A stretch of DNA of 64,000 nucleotides, taken from NCBI GenBank assembly GCA_022736555.1, contig DZCW01000001.1, forward strand, positions 62,001-126,000, in the 5' to 3' direction. Below, one piece after another: positions 58,214 through 63,783 of this stretch (position 1 is its first letter; each line of letters starts with the position of its first letter). Origin of the DNA: Candidatus Saccharimonas sp. (GTDB taxonomy: Bacteria; Patescibacteriota; Saccharimonadia; Saccharimonadales; Saccharimonadaceae). The notes beneath the pieces are model-generated. The model made no database searches. It worked only from the letters and a program-made list of their open reading frames with translations, and had not been told where the DNA came from. Position numbers and translations under genes: made by a program.

Positions 58214-58219
58214 TATGCT
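58214..58219 (+). promoter_or_regulatory. Extended -10 (TGG-TATGCT) of the ABC-F gene
   Basis: Ends 7 nt before ATG 58227 and contains the earlier ATG at 58215, which argues for 58227 as the true start. Confidence 0.5.
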
Positions 58220-58226
58220 GTTACAG

Positions 58227-59858
58227 ATGATTGCCGATATTACCATTACAGAGAAGAGTTTTGGTCCCAAGATTTTAATGACTGGGATTAAATTCAGTAT
58301 CAACGACGGCGAAAAAGTTGGCGTAGTTGGTCGTAATGGTGTCGGTAAGTCCACGCTTTTCGGTATACTGACTGGCGAAGACAAGGATTTTACTGGTGAA
58401 ATCATATTCAAACGTGGCACTGTTGTAGTGTCAACCGCCCAGGAGCATCATAATTTGGGCGATATAACTGTCTTGCAATATATCCTATCTGGCCTGCCTG
58501 AATATACGAAACTCAGCAATATTATGGAAACCTATCCCGAGACTATGGGCGATAATATGAAATTAATCGACGAATACACCCAGGCTTTAATGCGATTTGA
58601 TGAAAAAGGTTTTTATCAAATCGAGGATGTAATTGAACGAGAACTTGATAACTTTCAGCTACCAGGGGTGGCTCATCGTGCCTTTTCTACCCTATCTGGT
58701 GGTCAAAAACGCCTAATTGAAATCGTCAAAGTTATGCATAGTGATGCCGATCTAGCGCTTATTGATGAACCTACTAATCACATGGACTATGTAGCAAAAT
58801 CCCAATATATCGAATGGATGAAGGGTGCGCGCGAAGCGATGTTAGTAATCACCCACGATCGTGAAGTCCTGAGTGAAGTTGACCGCATTATCGAACTAAA
58901 GGATGGCGACAATGTGAGCTATAAGGGTAATTATGATGCTTATTTAAAACAAAATGCCGTCAGCACTGGCACTCAAATGAATGATTTCGAGATGATTGAG
59001 AAAAGAATCGTCAATCTAAAAACTAAAGTTATCGATTATCAACGACTCAAAGAAAAATCACGCAACCCCGGCACTATCCAAAAGTTTAAGCGCCTAGAGG
59101 AAAGATCACGCCAGGAATTAGCTGAGTTGCAGGCCAAAGAAAAGCCAACTTTCTGGATTGACAAGGAATCAGCTGAAAATCTAAATTACAAGGTTGCCGC
59201 TCAATACGATAAATTCAAAGCCAAAAATATCAGAATGAATATGAAAAACGAAGAATCGCGCAGTAAGCACGTCCTGATTACGGCACGAGATTTGTCATTG
59301 GGGTACGATCGACCACTCTTTAGCGGTGTTAATATTGATTTGCGCGAAGGTGAAGCCCTAGAATTACGCGGTAGAAATGGCGCTGGTAAAACTACACTAA
59401 TCAAGGCGTTATTAAGTGATAAATCAGTCAATAAATTCGCTGGTGAAATATCAATTGATAAACATGTCAGAATTGGTATATACGAGCAAGAAATCTCACC
59501 GACCTATTTTGGCATGGATCTAGAAACTGCCATCGAACGAATGTATTTGGACCGCAACTTACCAATTTCGACCACTAAAATTCGTAGTTTAATGAGTGAT
59601 TATCTGTTCATTGAAAATGATGGCAAAACGCCAATTTCACGTTTGTCGGGTGGTCAGAAAGCCAGGTTCCAGTTGATTGCGATGTTAGCTGATAGTCCAC
59701 AACTTTTGATTTTAGATGAACCAACTAATCACTTGGATTTACCAAGTATTGAAGAGCTGGAAACGGCTATGGCTAAATATAATGGCGCAGCGTTATATGT
59801 CAGCCATGACGGCTATTTCCGCCAGGCTATCGGTGGTGAAACACTACTAATTGGCTAA
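58227..59858 (+). CDS. ABC-F family ribosome-associated ATPase
   Basis: The 543-residue protein has two ABC cassettes and no membrane domain. Cassette 1 has GRNGVGKSTLFG and LSGGQKRLIEIVKVMHSDAD with LIDEPTNHMD. Cassette 2 has GRNGAGKTTLIK and LSGGQKARFQLIAML with LILDEPTNHLD. A charged linker of about 80 residues (ERSRQELAELQAKEKP region) lies between them, corresponding to the P-site tRNA interaction motif. ABC-F proteins resolve stalled ribosomes or regulate translation; the subfamily (EttA, Uup, YkpA-like) is not assigned. Confidence 0.92.
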   Translation: MIADITITEKSFGPKILMTGIKFSINDGEKVGVVGRNGVGKSTLFGILTGEDKDFTGEIIFKRGTVVVSTAQEHHNLGDITVLQYILSGLPEYTKLSNIMETYPETMGDNMKLIDEYTQALMRFDEKGFYQIEDVIERELDNFQLPGVAHRAFSTLSGGQKRLIEIVKVMHSDADLALIDEPTNHMDYVAKSQYIEWMKGAREAMLVITHDREVLSEVDRIIELKDGDNVSYKGNYDAYLKQNAVSTGTQMNDFEMIEKRIVNLKTKVIDYQRLKEKSRNPGTIQKFKRLEERSRQELAELQAKEKPTFWIDKESAENLNYKVAAQYDKFKAKNIRMNMKNEESRSKHVLITARDLSLGYDRPLFSGVNIDLREGEALELRGRNGAGKTTLIKALLSDKSVNKFAGEISIDKHVRIGIYEQEISPTYFGMDLETAIERMYLDRNLPISTTKIRSLMSDYLFIENDGKTPISRLSGGQKARFQLIAMLADSPQLLILDEPTNHLDLPSIEELETAMAKYNGAALYVSHDGYFRQAIGGETLLIG

Positions 59859-59869
59859 AGAACTTATGC

Positions 59870-59875
59870 TATACT
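59870..59875 (+). promoter_or_regulatory. Extended -10 (TGC-TATACT) of the RCC1 surface protein
   Basis: Ends 6 nt before ATG 59882; leaderless expected. Confidence 0.55.
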
Positions 59876-59881
59876 AAGGCT

Positions 59882-62704
59882 ATGAAATTTCGGCGTTCAA
59901 GTGGGTTTGCCCTTCCTACCGTACTAGTCGTGTCTGTCGTAATGATGATTGTATTATTAGTGGCTGTAACTTCAACCGCCTCTGTCCGTGTAGCTTTGAC
60001 ATCACAATATTATAACCAGTTGTCTAAAACAGCTGGCGAGGCTGGTGTTGCCTATGCCAAAGCCTGCCTGAGTGCCAATAATGGTGTTTCGCAGTGGTCA
60101 AACGCCCAACCGCTTAAACCAAATACCGATTGTACCGGCACTGCTCTCGCGGGCGTGACTTGTCCATCGGCGGATACGCACTGTTCTGTCGTGAGTGACG
60201 GCAATGTTAGTAGCACTTTTTCGGTTGGCCTGGACCAATTGACTACCCCCAATGGCGGGTGGAGCCAAGTGGTATCTGGGTATTATCACACCTGTGCTAT
60301 CGCTATATCAAATAGCAAGATTTATTGTTGGGGTAATAACAGTAGTGGCCAGTTAGGTGACGGTTCGATTATTACTAGCCCTATTCCTACTACCGTCGAT
60401 ACTTCTGGTGTTTTGAGCGGGTTGACGATCAAAGCTATCGCGGCCGGAGGTTACCATACTTGTGTTATCGCTTCGGACGATAGGGCTTATTGCTGGGGCA
60501 ATAACGGTAGTGGGCAGCTGGGTAATAACTCGACCACTAATAGTTCGATACCCGTGGCCGTCGATACCTCTGGGGTTTTAAATGGGCTAACAGTCAAAGC
60601 TATTTCGGCTGGGTATAATTTTACCTGCGCGATTGCTTCGGATAATAATACTTATTGTTGGGGCGACAATAGTTATGGAGGGCAGCTCGGCAATAACTCT
60701 TCTACTAGCAGTTCGGTACCTGTTGCCGTTACTACTTCTGGGGTATTGAGTGGTTTAACCGTTAAGGCAATAACGTCCAGTGATTATCACACCTGCGTGA
60801 TTGCTTCAAATAATAATGCCTATTGTTGGGGCTATGGTTCGAGCGGTAGCTATACCCTGGGCACTAATTCGGTCGCACTCAGTCGTGTACCAGTTGCTGT
60901 CACTACCTCTGGCGTGTTAAGTGGGCTGACTATTAATTCGATATCGGCCGGTGGTGAACATACCTGCGTAGTAGCTTCGAATAACAAGGCGTATTGTTGG
61001 GGCACTAACAGATATGGACAACTCGGTAACAATTCGACTACTAATAGTTCTACCGCGGTTGCAGTTACTACTTCTGGAGTTTTAAGCGGTCTAACCGTTA
61101 AGGCGGTCGCATCAGGCGATTCACATACCTGCGCGGTAGCTTCGAATAATAATTCTTATTGCTGGGGGTTAAACTCTTATGGGCAACTCGGTAATAACTC
61201 GACTACTAATAGCTTGGTCCCAGTCACCGTTACCACTTCTGGTGCTTTGAGCGGCTTAACTATCAAATTCGTAACGGCTGGGTCGCATCATAATTGCACA
61301 GTCGCCTCTAATGACAAGATATATTGTTGGGGTTATAACAGTTACGGCCAACTCGGGGCTAGTTCGTATAATAACAGTTCCGTTGCGGTTAGTTTGAATA
61401 TTACCGGTGCAATGATTAACGATATAACCTCAATAGGAACAACTAACCTATCGCGCACAACTGATAATACCATCTGGCGGCAGTATACTCAGGCGACACG
61501 ATTTAATTCGGTCAAAAAGACGTCGCAGAGCCAGATTGTGTTACAGGCAGTAGATGGCGGACTATTTCATACCTGTGCCATCGCTTCGGATAACAAAGCC
61601 TATTGTTGGGGAAATAATGGTAATGGCCAATTAGGTATTAATTCCACTACTAGCAAGTTTGTGCCCGTAGCGGTTATTTCCTCTGGAGTTTTAGCTGGCA
61701 AGACAATCAAGGCTATATCGCCTGGGTTCTATCATACCTGTGCCATAGCTTCGGATAACAAAGCCTATTGTTGGGGATCAGGATATAATGGTCAGTTAGG
61801 TGATAATACCACCGACCAAGATTATGTTCCGGTAGCCGTAAGCACATCAGGGGCTTTAAGTGGTTTAGGTATTACGGCGATAGCTGCTGGCGGTTATCAT
61901 AACTGTGTGATTGCCTCGAATAACAAAGCCTACTGCTGGGGTGCTGATTGGAGTGGTCAATTAGGTAATAATTCAACTTCTAATAGTTCAGTGCCAGTCG
62001 CAGTCACTACCTCTGGGGTTTTGAGTGGTTTAACGATTAAAGCAATTTCTAATGGCGAGAGCCACACCTGTGCTATTGCTTCTAATGATAAGGTTTATTG
62101 TTGGGGCGATAATAGCTATGGTCAATTAGGTAATAATTCAACAACCGACAGTTCAGTGCCAGTTGCCGTCACTACATCTGGGGTATTAAGCGGCTTAACT
62201 ATCAAGGCGCTATCGTTAGGTGGTTATCATACATGCGTAATTGCCTCAAACAACAAAACTTATTGTTGGGGTTATAACACCTATAGGCAGTTAGGTAATA
62301 ACTCAACATCTAACAGTTCAGTGCCAGTTGCCGTCACTACATCTGGGGTATTGAGTGGTTTAACGATCAAATTCTTGTCGGCTGGCGGCTATCATAACTG
62401 CGTGGTGGCCTCGAATAATAATGCCTATTGTTGGGGCCGTAATGATGATGGTCAATTAGGCAATAATTCTACCAATAATAGCTCTACGCCCGTAGCTGTT
62501 AATAACACTGGGGTTCTCAGTGGTTTGACGTTAAAATCAATCGCCGCTGGATTTTTTCATAACTGCGTGATTGCTTCGGATGACAACACCTATTGTTGGG
62601 GTGAAAATGCTCTCGGCGCATTGGGCAATAACTCAACTAATCAGAGCAGCGTCCCCGTCATGACATTAGTTATTCTCTACTATGACACTAGTATTTATTT
62701 TTAG
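59882..62704 (+). CDS. Prepilin-like protein with two seven-bladed RCC1 beta-propellers
   Basis: The 940-residue protein starts MKFRRSSGFALPTVLVVSVV, a type IV prepilin/PilX-like leader (cleavage after G8, no Glu at +5) and hydrophobic helix. About 90 residues of pilin-like sequence follow. Fourteen RCC1 repeats of about 53 residues come next, each with HTC-xIAS...YCWG...GQLGNNST. Seven lie before and seven after a non-RCC1 segment (about 515-560: TTNLSRTTDNTIWRQYTQAT), so two complete propellers are likely. The segment between resembles the C-terminal part of a pilin-like domain, suggesting propeller 1 is inserted in it (inference). Each blade has a Cys pair 9-10 residues apart, probably disulfide bonded. 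Likely a surface adhesin or pilus-tip protein. Confidence 0.85.
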   Translation: MKFRRSSGFALPTVLVVSVVMMIVLLVAVTSTASVRVALTSQYYNQLSKTAGEAGVAYAKACLSANNGVSQWSNAQPLKPNTDCTGTALAGVTCPSADTHCSVVSDGNVSSTFSVGLDQLTTPNGGWSQVVSGYYHTCAIAISNSKIYCWGNNSSGQLGDGSIITSPIPTTVDTSGVLSGLTIKAIAAGGYHTCVIASDDRAYCWGNNGSGQLGNNSTTNSSIPVAVDTSGVLNGLTVKAISAGYNFTCAIASDNNTYCWGDNSYGGQLGNNSSTSSSVPVAVTTSGVLSGLTVKAITSSDYHTCVIASNNNAYCWGYGSSGSYTLGTNSVALSRVPVAVTTSGVLSGLTINSISAGGEHTCVVASNNKAYCWGTNRYGQLGNNSTTNSSTAVAVTTSGVLSGLTVKAVASGDSHTCAVASNNNSYCWGLNSYGQLGNNSTTNSLVPVTVTTSGALSGLTIKFVTAGSHHNCTVASNDKIYCWGYNSYGQLGASSYNNSSVAVSLNITGAMINDITSIGTTNLSRTTDNTIWRQYTQATRFNSVKKTSQSQIVLQAVDGGLFHTCAIASDNKAYCWGNNGNGQLGINSTTSKFVPVAVISSGVLAGKTIKAISPGFYHTCAIASDNKAYCWGSGYNGQLGDNTTDQDYVPVAVSTSGALSGLGITAIAAGGYHNCVIASNNKAYCWGADWSGQLGNNSTSNSSVPVAVTTSGVLSGLTIKAISNGESHTCAIASNDKVYCWGDNSYGQLGNNSTTDSSVPVAVTTSGVLSGLTIKALSLGGYHTCVIASNNKTYCWGYNTYRQLGNNSTSNSSVPVAVTTSGVLSGLTIKFLSAGGYHNCVVASNNNAYCWGRNDDGQLGNNSTNNSSTPVAVNNTGVLSGLTLKSIAAGFFHNCVIASDDNTYCWGENALGALGNNSTNQSSVPVMTLVILYYDTSIYF
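60270..62660 (+). repeat. Fourteen RCC1-coding tandem repeats (about 160 bp period)
   Basis: DNA-level similarity is high among several units, especially those in 61,960-62,400, where long stretches such as GTAATAATTCAAC and TTGAGTGGTTTAAC recur. Recent unit duplication or conversion is likely. The assembly here should be treated with care. Confidence 0.8.
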
Positions 62705-62715
62705 GAATGATGTAT

Positions 62716-63783
62716 TTATTTTAATAGCCGGCGGGCTTCTTCGGTGTTTTTTGTATGCATTAATTTTTCACGAAGTTCGCTAGCGCCTGGAAAATCGCGA
62801 ATATAAATCTTGAAAAAGCGTTTTAACGGATCAAATTTGCGTGGTTCTAATTCACTAGAGTATTTGTCGTGTAGGTCTAGGTGGAGGTTTAGTAGGTTTA
62901 ACAGCTCTTTTTTATTATGTATATTCCGTTCGATATCACAACTAGCAAACGGCTTCACGCCGGGTACGAACAAGGGTCCCGACACCTTGTCGTCCTCGGG
63001 TTGCAGATGTTTGTTAGCTGCAATATCCAACGAATTAGCTGGCGACGGTCTAAACTTTTCAAACGCAAATGGATTACTAAAAACGCCACGACCGATCATG
63101 ATTCCATCTATGCCGTATGCATTAACTAACTCCATACCATGCTCACGATCACGAATATCGCCGTTGATTGTCAGTAGCGTATTAGGTGCTATTTCGTCGC
63201 GGAGTTTTTTAATATCGGGGATTAGTTCAAAGTGGGCTTTGACTTTACTCATTTCGCTGCGGGTGCGCAAGTGAACTGTTAGATTAACTATATCTTGGCG
63301 GAGTAAAAACCCGATCCAGTCTTGCCATTCGTTTGCTTTTATATCACCTAGACGAGTTTTAACACTAACTGGTAATCCCCCAGTTTTGGCGGCTCTGATT
63401 AATTCGCCAGCTAGTTCTGGTGTACGAATGAGGGCGCTGCCTGAACCAGTTTTGATGACTGATTTGTCAGGGCAACCCATATTGATGTCGATACCAGCGT
63501 AGCCCATTTCGGCCAATGCTAGACTCATTTTGGTAAATTCATCAGGTTTGTTGCCCCAGATTTGGGCAACTATAGGCTGTTCGTCACTAGTAAAAGCTAA
63601 CCGACCACGGGTGCTATGGGTGCCTTTTGGACTACAAAAACTCGAGGCATTAACAAATTCCGTGAAAAAAATATCTGGTTTGGCGGCACTGGCTATAACA
63701 TGGCGCCAAACGACGTCAGTTACTGCCTCCATCGGAGCTAGTGCAAAAAATGGTTTTGGTAGGTTATTCCAGAAATTTGTCAT
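62716..63783 (-). CDS. dus: tRNA-dihydrouridine synthase
   Basis: FMN-dependent reductase of tRNA uridines. The 355-residue TIM-barrel protein has [45 protein letters not shown] (catalytic C104), [22 protein letters not shown] and [15 protein letters not shown]. Relative to typical DusB it has a short insert near 265-285. Minus-strand GATAAT (63790-63795) is 6 nt before the ATG. It lies convergent to the RCC1 gene, 11 bp away. Confidence 0.93.

Follow-up and report, generated by a model that had tools for sequence, protein, structure and literature searches.

A pilin-like protein of Candidatus Saccharimonas with two predicted RCC1 propellers, one placed inside its pilin domain

The gene described here lies at positions 59882-62704 (+ strand) of a 64,000-nucleotide stretch of a Candidatus Saccharimonas sp. 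genome (hereafter the window; NCBI GenBank assembly GCA_022736555.1, contig DZCW01000001.1, positions 62,001 to 126,000 of the forward strand). The source bacterium is very small and probably lives attached to other bacteria. The gene is a single intact open reading frame (ORF) of 940 amino acids (aa), free of internal stops. Our computations recovered this ORF, 14 RCC1 repeats, two predicted propeller folds and a split pilin domain, together with a conserved locus that bears differing heads in relatives, and pilus and prepilin peptidase (PilD) genes in the same genome. We consider it fairly probable that the window protein is a tip subunit of a second type IV pilus that lacks the glutamate at position 5 of the mature pilin (Glu5 or E5) and presents two adhesin heads toward a host bacterium. 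A form with a single propeller has already been published; two propellers on one pilin, one of them internal, and the turnover of heads on a conserved stem are new.

All RCC1 matches of the genome (G000, a draft of 692,521 bases in 9 contigs, 96.6% complete) fell within this frame in a genome-wide scan, and 14 out of 14 were above the Pfam cut-off. Seven repeats occupy residues 124-511 and seven residues 550-934, with 38 non-RCC1 residues between them. The repeat period is 55-57 aa and the sole jump, of 93 aa, separates repeats 7 and 8; the 7 + 7 arrangement, which the original prediction had proposed from the sequence, is therefore exact. Pfam matches on the whole protein were WD40_RLD (E = 1.6e-178), RCC1_2 (E = 8.9e-124, 14 stretches) and RCC1 (E = 1.3e-118). 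An AlphaFold2 model of the whole protein, based on a 13-row alignment, had a mean predicted local distance difference test score (pLDDT) of 77.5, with high values for both arrays. In a second model, of residues 1-552 (18 rows), propeller 1 consisted of 28 strands (7 x 4), mostly with pLDDT above 90. Both arrays are predicted to fold as seven four-stranded blades, so that the two complete seven-bladed propellers on which the original prediction rested were found in the predicted structure. In VIA-align comparisons with UVR8, residues 122-508 (propeller 1) gave a Z-score of 56.1 (root-mean-square deviation 1.7 over 365 residues) and residues 546-931 (propeller 2) a Z-score of 57.6 (1.9 over 368 residues). 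The highest UVR8 TM-score obtained with Foldseek was 0.94, on target length. The features of an RCC1-like seven-bladed propeller, i.e. seven repeats of about 51-57 aa with four strands each, thus occur twice. The fold resembles UVR8 and other eukaryotic RCC1-like propellers (Z 56-58) and, at a lower score, BLIP-II (Z about 28); however, UVR8 and BLIP-II are single propellers without a pilin stem.

An in-register duplication relating the two propellers was rejected: blades of the same rank share a mean identity of 61.2%, and the six shifted registers gave means of 57.0-62.2%; blade identities at the DNA level likewise showed no in-register excess. Because codon agreement at identical residues of paired blades (about 42%) was near the 39% expected from the codon use of the gene, a recent repeat duplication or an obvious assembly artefact was also rejected. 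Among 20 RCC1 arrays on stem-type proteins, which come from related rows, the repeat number was a multiple of seven in 14 (21 repeats in two, 14 in seven and 7 in five). The others had 13 (L116), 10 (L124; 13 weakly), 12 (L126), 8 (L113), 3 (L117; 7 weakly) and 3 (L121; 6 weakly). The multiples of seven fit heads that are gained or lost as whole propellers.

Every one of the 14 blades carries a cysteine pair 9-10 residues apart, which accounts for 28 of the 32 cysteines of the protein. In the repeats of the stem family both cysteines were present in 146, neither in 16 and a single one in 4; the corresponding numbers for repeats of other RCC1 proteins were 139, 87 and 3. Since the pairs are nearly all-or-none, the sequences suggest that each blade probably holds one disulfide. 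A DsbA-like protein of this genome has a membrane helix at its N-terminus and a CPGC motif.

To locate the pilin domain, two hidden Markov models (HMMs) were built from 10 relatives with an uninterrupted pilin domain, the window protein being excluded: HMM A for the N-terminal half and HMM B for the C-terminal strands. HMM A matched residues 8-116 of the window protein with 160 bits (runner-up among the 139 ORFs of the window, 5.2 bits), and HMM B matched residues 514-545 with 28.9 bits (independent E-value 4.7e-9; runner-up among the same ORFs, 5.3 bits). The two matches are separated by a gap of 398 residues. Because HMM B places the last pilin strands at 514-545, homology supports the placement of propeller 1 within the pilin domain. 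Gaps of more than 200 residues were found in nine of 46 stems (the window protein, L095, L098, L103, L105, L107, L118, L119 and L120). The inserts of the eight others contain glycine-rich domains, several of them in an earlier loop, and the window protein is the sole one of the 46 with RCC1 repeats at an internal site. By sequence, L098 has its insert at the position that propeller 1 occupies in the window protein, following the FS[IV]G strand. The window protein combines a pilin module with a module that is not pilus-specific, the combination that defines a modular pilin.

The N-terminus of the window protein, MKFRRSSG followed by FALPTVLVV, resembles a class III leader: it is short and basic, ends with Gly and is followed by a hydrophobic helix, which spans residues 11-63/65 in both AlphaFold2 models. 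A motif script found this leader pattern in 43 of 47 stem-type proteins, with four outside the pattern. The residue at position +5 in the 43 was Thr (37), Ser (2), Leu (2), Ala (1) or Val (1), and Glu in none of them. Tip subunits of the GspK and PilX types are also without Glu5; a literature search gave no confirmation of this.

The stem is widespread among relatives. Its first 118 residues matched 119 of 394 genomes of the family, including 24 of the 28 genomes of the genus. We examined 40 stretches with 42 stem proteins, comprising all same-genus matches minus some second copies, plus chosen other genera. In at least 21 of the 23 stretches from the genus, a gene that we take to encode an ABC-F ATPase precedes the stem gene by 0 to 2 kb, and the presumed tRNA-dihydrouridine synthase gene (dus) lies downstream in at least six; the 23 exclude a second copy in G114, and several of them are truncated. 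Within the genus all 276 stem pairs aligned (median identity 60%), against 119 of 253 head pairs, and the window head aligned with two of 22 other heads. According to our own HMMs and Pfam, RCC1 heads in the genus have 14 repeats in the window protein and G114, and 21 in G203. Other heads are glycine-rich, PA14-like, Laminin_G_3, Fibrinogen_C or InlB-type repeats; that of G124 is a lactonase-type propeller and G168 is headless. One headless stem (L094) is 172 aa long. Folds with a binding function are frequent among the heads (Laminin_G_3, Fibrinogen_C, Ricin_B_lectin and CBM-like). The head class changes seven times or more, and the internal-insert state five times or more, on an ABC-F tree of 25 rows, 9 of whose 22 inner branches were well supported. 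The comparison covers variation between species. Head types are common to close relatives, and because of this the exchange is taken to occur between species. Literature searches, judged mainly from search-level descriptions, found no published description of head exchange on a fixed pilin stem. In L117 and L121, from two other genera, RCC1 repeats flank Ricin_B lectin domains, as if the propeller itself were interrupted.

The genome encodes the machinery for type IV pili. One run on contig C3 contains pilM, N, O, B, T and C, a pilin, a prepilin peptidase and minor pilins, and contig C4 carries a second set of pilB, pilC, pilM, N and O. The ATPases and the prepilin peptidase are Pfam matches; the other names are those that we presume from sequence. 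The peptidase gene, whose presence the original prediction had made a condition, was thus found beside the PilB, PilT and PilC genes. A separate, T4P-2-like (second type IV pilus) minor-pilin cluster lies between murB and glyA, in what we take, from the gene sequences, to be the order murB-Z-V-W-(102-bp gap)-A2-glyA. It is collinear with Saccharibacteria L018 and L025, where a stem-type RCC1 pilin follows a pilW-type gene. By coordinates, the stem gene directly follows pilW2 in five genomes of two other genera (g25: G024 and G139; g36: G035, G100 and G113). The slot between pilW2 and pilA2, which bears PilX in relatives, is empty here, being the 102-bp gap, and the sole stem of this kind in the genome follows the ABC-F gene. 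On the simplest interpretation, the window gene is a relocated PilX2 gene of the second pilus. The stem HMM matched L025 and L026 (Saccharibacteria; L026 is oral taxon 352) at 52-54 bits.

Three further observations concern these pilus loci. The murB-Z-V-W-A2-glyA cluster is conserved across the genus (L129:6439-9805, L139-L162), and large extra domains, mostly unknown to Pfam, are found in PilW2 and, in certain genomes, also in PilV2 or the first pilin. A gene for a vWA-like secreted protein (named by eye; L015:90-1250) lies directly before the pilM-N-O-B-T-C run and is a possible pilus-linked adhesin. A third PilB-type ATPase is encoded at L017:7742-9367 (E = 1.9e-91), and no pilin gene was seen within the surrounding 16-kb stretch.

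The size of PilW2 appeared to vary with the head. Bare PilW2 (255-283 aa) was found in all four same-genus genomes with propeller heads and in none of 17 other same-genus genomes with known heads (488 aa or more), after setting aside G132 (interrupted), G186, G215 and G224 (no match) and G194, G218 and G221 (head unknown). In other genera it was found in eight of 10 RCC1-bearing genomes and in none of four others, G170 (350 aa, near a contig end) and G055 (no match) being set aside; G158 (701 aa) and G072 (639 aa), both RCC1-bearing with a large PilW2, are the counter-examples. The tree gives only one or two independent pairs for this link, which we take as a lead rather than a result, hinting no further than that the heads of PilX and PilW2 may be packed against each other at the tip.

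The closest known protein is PilX2 of Nanosynbacter lyticus TM7x, a minor pilin whose C-terminal part is a seven-bladed RCC1 propeller (Grossman et al. 2025, PMC12206443). Host binding, at about 10.6% of host cells, fell to 4.6% when pilX2 was deleted, and the deletion altered the number and length of T4P-2 filaments; the authors proposed PilX2 as the T4P-2 adhesin (PMC12206443). Type IV pilus genes are reported to be largely essential in Southlakia (PMC10633639). The window protein resembles PilX2 in being a Saccharibacteria minor pilin with such a propeller, with a non-canonical signal peptide and, here, an E5-less stem. It differs in having two propellers, one inside the pilin domain, whereas PilX2 has one and the published account describes none inside. 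Unlike pilX2, which lies with pilA2/W2/V2/Z2 (PMC12206443), the window gene follows the ABC-F gene. For the host-contact role suggested by the original prediction, support comes only from the analogous pilX2 deletion of N. lyticus.

The window protein would accordingly be pictured as a modular minor pilin of the PilX2 kind in a Saccharibacteria-like episymbiont. Its N-terminal helix may be processed by PilD and then packed into T4P-2, and without Glu5 the protein would be placed at the pilus tip beside PilW2. The pilin body would bear one RCC1 propeller in an internal loop and another at the C-terminus, with blades that are probably disulfide-locked, and the propellers may be adhesive heads that recognise a ligand on the surface of the host bacterium. 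The stem would stay constant while heads are replaced between species. A broader and more tentative proposal, which we hold as possible rather than probable, is that in this family of Saccharibacteria a fixed stem at a fixed locus, with at least two loading points in its pilin body, holds interchangeable host-recognition heads, that the PilX head changes together with the PilW2 head, and that this locus, not the pilus machine, sets the host that a given species can hold; the window protein would be the two-headed, disulfide-locked form.

Elements of this architecture are found in other systems. In Streptococcus sanguinis, the minor pilins PilB and PilC carry additional adhesive modules, which they expose at the tip of the pilus (PMC8179133, PMC9934059); their modules differ, being vWA or Ig and ConA-like lectin modules, all C-terminal, and PilC has Glu5. 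Thermus ComZ and GspK of type II secretion, the latter proposed to be at the tip, have a large domain inserted in the minor-pilin beta-sheet, as here, but the insert is a beta-solenoid in ComZ and an alpha-domain in GspK instead of an RCC1 propeller (PMC8179133). The tip adhesins PilY1/PilC also present a beta-propeller on a type IV pilus for adhesion; they are, unlike the window protein, not pilins, and their propeller belongs to a different family, for which the window protein gave no Pfam match up to E = 1. We know of no second C-terminal head on ComZ or GspK.

Several points weigh against the assignment of the window protein to a pilus tip. Of the prepilin leader in the original prediction, the class-III-like leader and helix hold, but the leader is non-canonical, with Thr in place of Glu5, and no curated pilin model scored above its cut-off on the window protein (PilX_N, E = 0.29); a prepilin model of NCBIfam, NF007660, was also below cut-off (E = 0.017). 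Pfam pilin models matched none of 21 stems at E up to 0.05. Therefore, a pilin survey by the usual motif, such as that of modular pilins by IPR012902 (PMC8179133), would probably miss this stem family. A profile search of the 21 stems against PDB sequences gave no match at E up to 1. For N. lyticus PilX2, the predictor used by its authors reported no PilD site (PMC12206443). The pilin head has pLDDT below 50 in both AlphaFold2 models, and the pilin fold, with propeller 1 inserted into it as originally predicted, is supported by homology only (HMMs A and B). The window gene is far from all pil genes and outside the pilA2/W2/V2 cluster, which lowers the PilX2-type assignment without removing it, position not being a defining feature. 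Our comparison with the PilX2 type used L025 and L026 in place of the N. lyticus sequence, and the pilX2 deletion phenotype is that of another species and of a protein with one propeller. A search of the genome for a VKOR partner of DsbA gave no match. Finally, the RCC1 fold gives nothing certain about the ligand.

Some of these points would also suit a membrane-anchored surface protein that is not a pilus subunit, with an uncleaved helix and propellers at the cell surface: Glu5 and a curated pilin match are missing, the gene is away from the pil clusters, and related genomes encode non-pilin RCC1 surface proteins with other N-termini. We regard this as unlikely, since the stem has pilin-like C-terminal strands, the genes of relatives directly follow pilW-type genes, and loss of pilX2 altered the T4P-2 filaments (PMC12206443). 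The same filament phenotype can be turned toward a mechanical role, in which the propellers have no host ligand and serve to prime or cap the assembly of pili or to link one pilus to another, and the co-variation of head type with PilW2 size looks as if heads pack against pilus partners. Such a role is improbable to us, because a headless stem in one species (L094) shows that the head is not needed for the stem to persist.

Heads that turn over between sister species at one locus, as surface antigens do, might also owe their diversity chiefly to evasion of phages or predators that exploit the pilus, the propellers being shields or decoys rather than a means of host choice. Head turnover alone does not separate host choice from such escape. 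We nevertheless find escape a decidedly weak candidate as the main cause, since so many heads are binding folds and deletion of pilX2 reduces host binding (PMC12206443). A chimeric assembly or mis-assembled repeat that put the second propeller into the pilin is very unlikely: the genome is a draft, repeats are hard to assemble and this is the only internal RCC1 array among the 46 stems, but the frame is open, synonymous positions are saturated, which excludes a recent copy, and in eight relatives different domains are inserted in internal loops of this pilin. We therefore retain the two-headed tip subunit as the best explanation.

Table 1. Features of the window gene and its neighbours (window coordinates)
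Feature	Position	Strand	Description
Leader peptide	59882..59905	+	Residues 1-8, MKFRRSSG; predicted cleavage after Gly8; read from the translation
Pilin domain, N-terminal half	59903..60244	+	Residues 8-121; helix 11-63 and first strands; end STFSVG
Propeller 1	60245..61414	+	Residues 122-511; seven RCC1 repeats inside the pilin domain (by homology); Cys pair per blade
Pilin domain, C-terminal strands	61415..61522	+	Residues 512-547, including ITSIGTTNLSRTTDNTIWRQYTQATRF; HMM B
Propeller 2	61523..62689	+	Residues 548-936; seven RCC1 repeats, C-terminal
C-terminal tail and stop codon	62690..62704	+	From the translation
Gene directly upstream	58215..59858	+	Conserved left neighbour of the locus; presumably an ABC-F ATPase, named from its sequence; ORF list
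Convergent right neighbour	62716..63783	-	Presumably tRNA-dihydrouridine synthase (dus), named from its sequence; ORF list

Upstream of the gene, an extended -10-like element, TGCTATACT, was read by eye at 59867-59875, ending 6 bases before the ATG; a computed scan did not list it. By eye, no clear Shine-Dalgarno sequence precedes the ATG at 59882, an arrangement as for a leaderless transcript. The guanine-cytosine content declines along the gene, from 49.0% in the stem to 46.4% in propeller 1 and 43.5% in propeller 2 (window mean, 41.6%).

Other large RCC1 proteins were met during the searches. Genomes of about 1 Mb encode giant non-pilin RCC1 proteins (L131 and L132 in G057, L133 in G065, L134 in G020, L135 in G114 and L136 in G124). 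One of these proteins reaches 6773 aa and has 36 or more repeats, grouped in blocks of 5-7; another, of 2628 aa, has blocks of 7, 6, 7, 7 and 7. On a contig of a Poseidoniaceae archaeon (L029:1507-10578) lies the gene for a 3024-aa protein whose 42 RCC1 repeats form six blocks of seven.

By what means episymbionts locate the correct host bacterium and stay attached to it is still an open question, and PilX2, the sole pilus adhesin candidate that has been tested, is of the kind described here. A pilin with two RCC1 propellers, one of them internal, broadens the range of cargo carried by pilus subunits. If the stem-and-head reading is true, one small gene per species would name a candidate recognition domain, for which expression and binding assays would not require culture of the epibiont. 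Such bacteria may alter their attachment targets at this locus.
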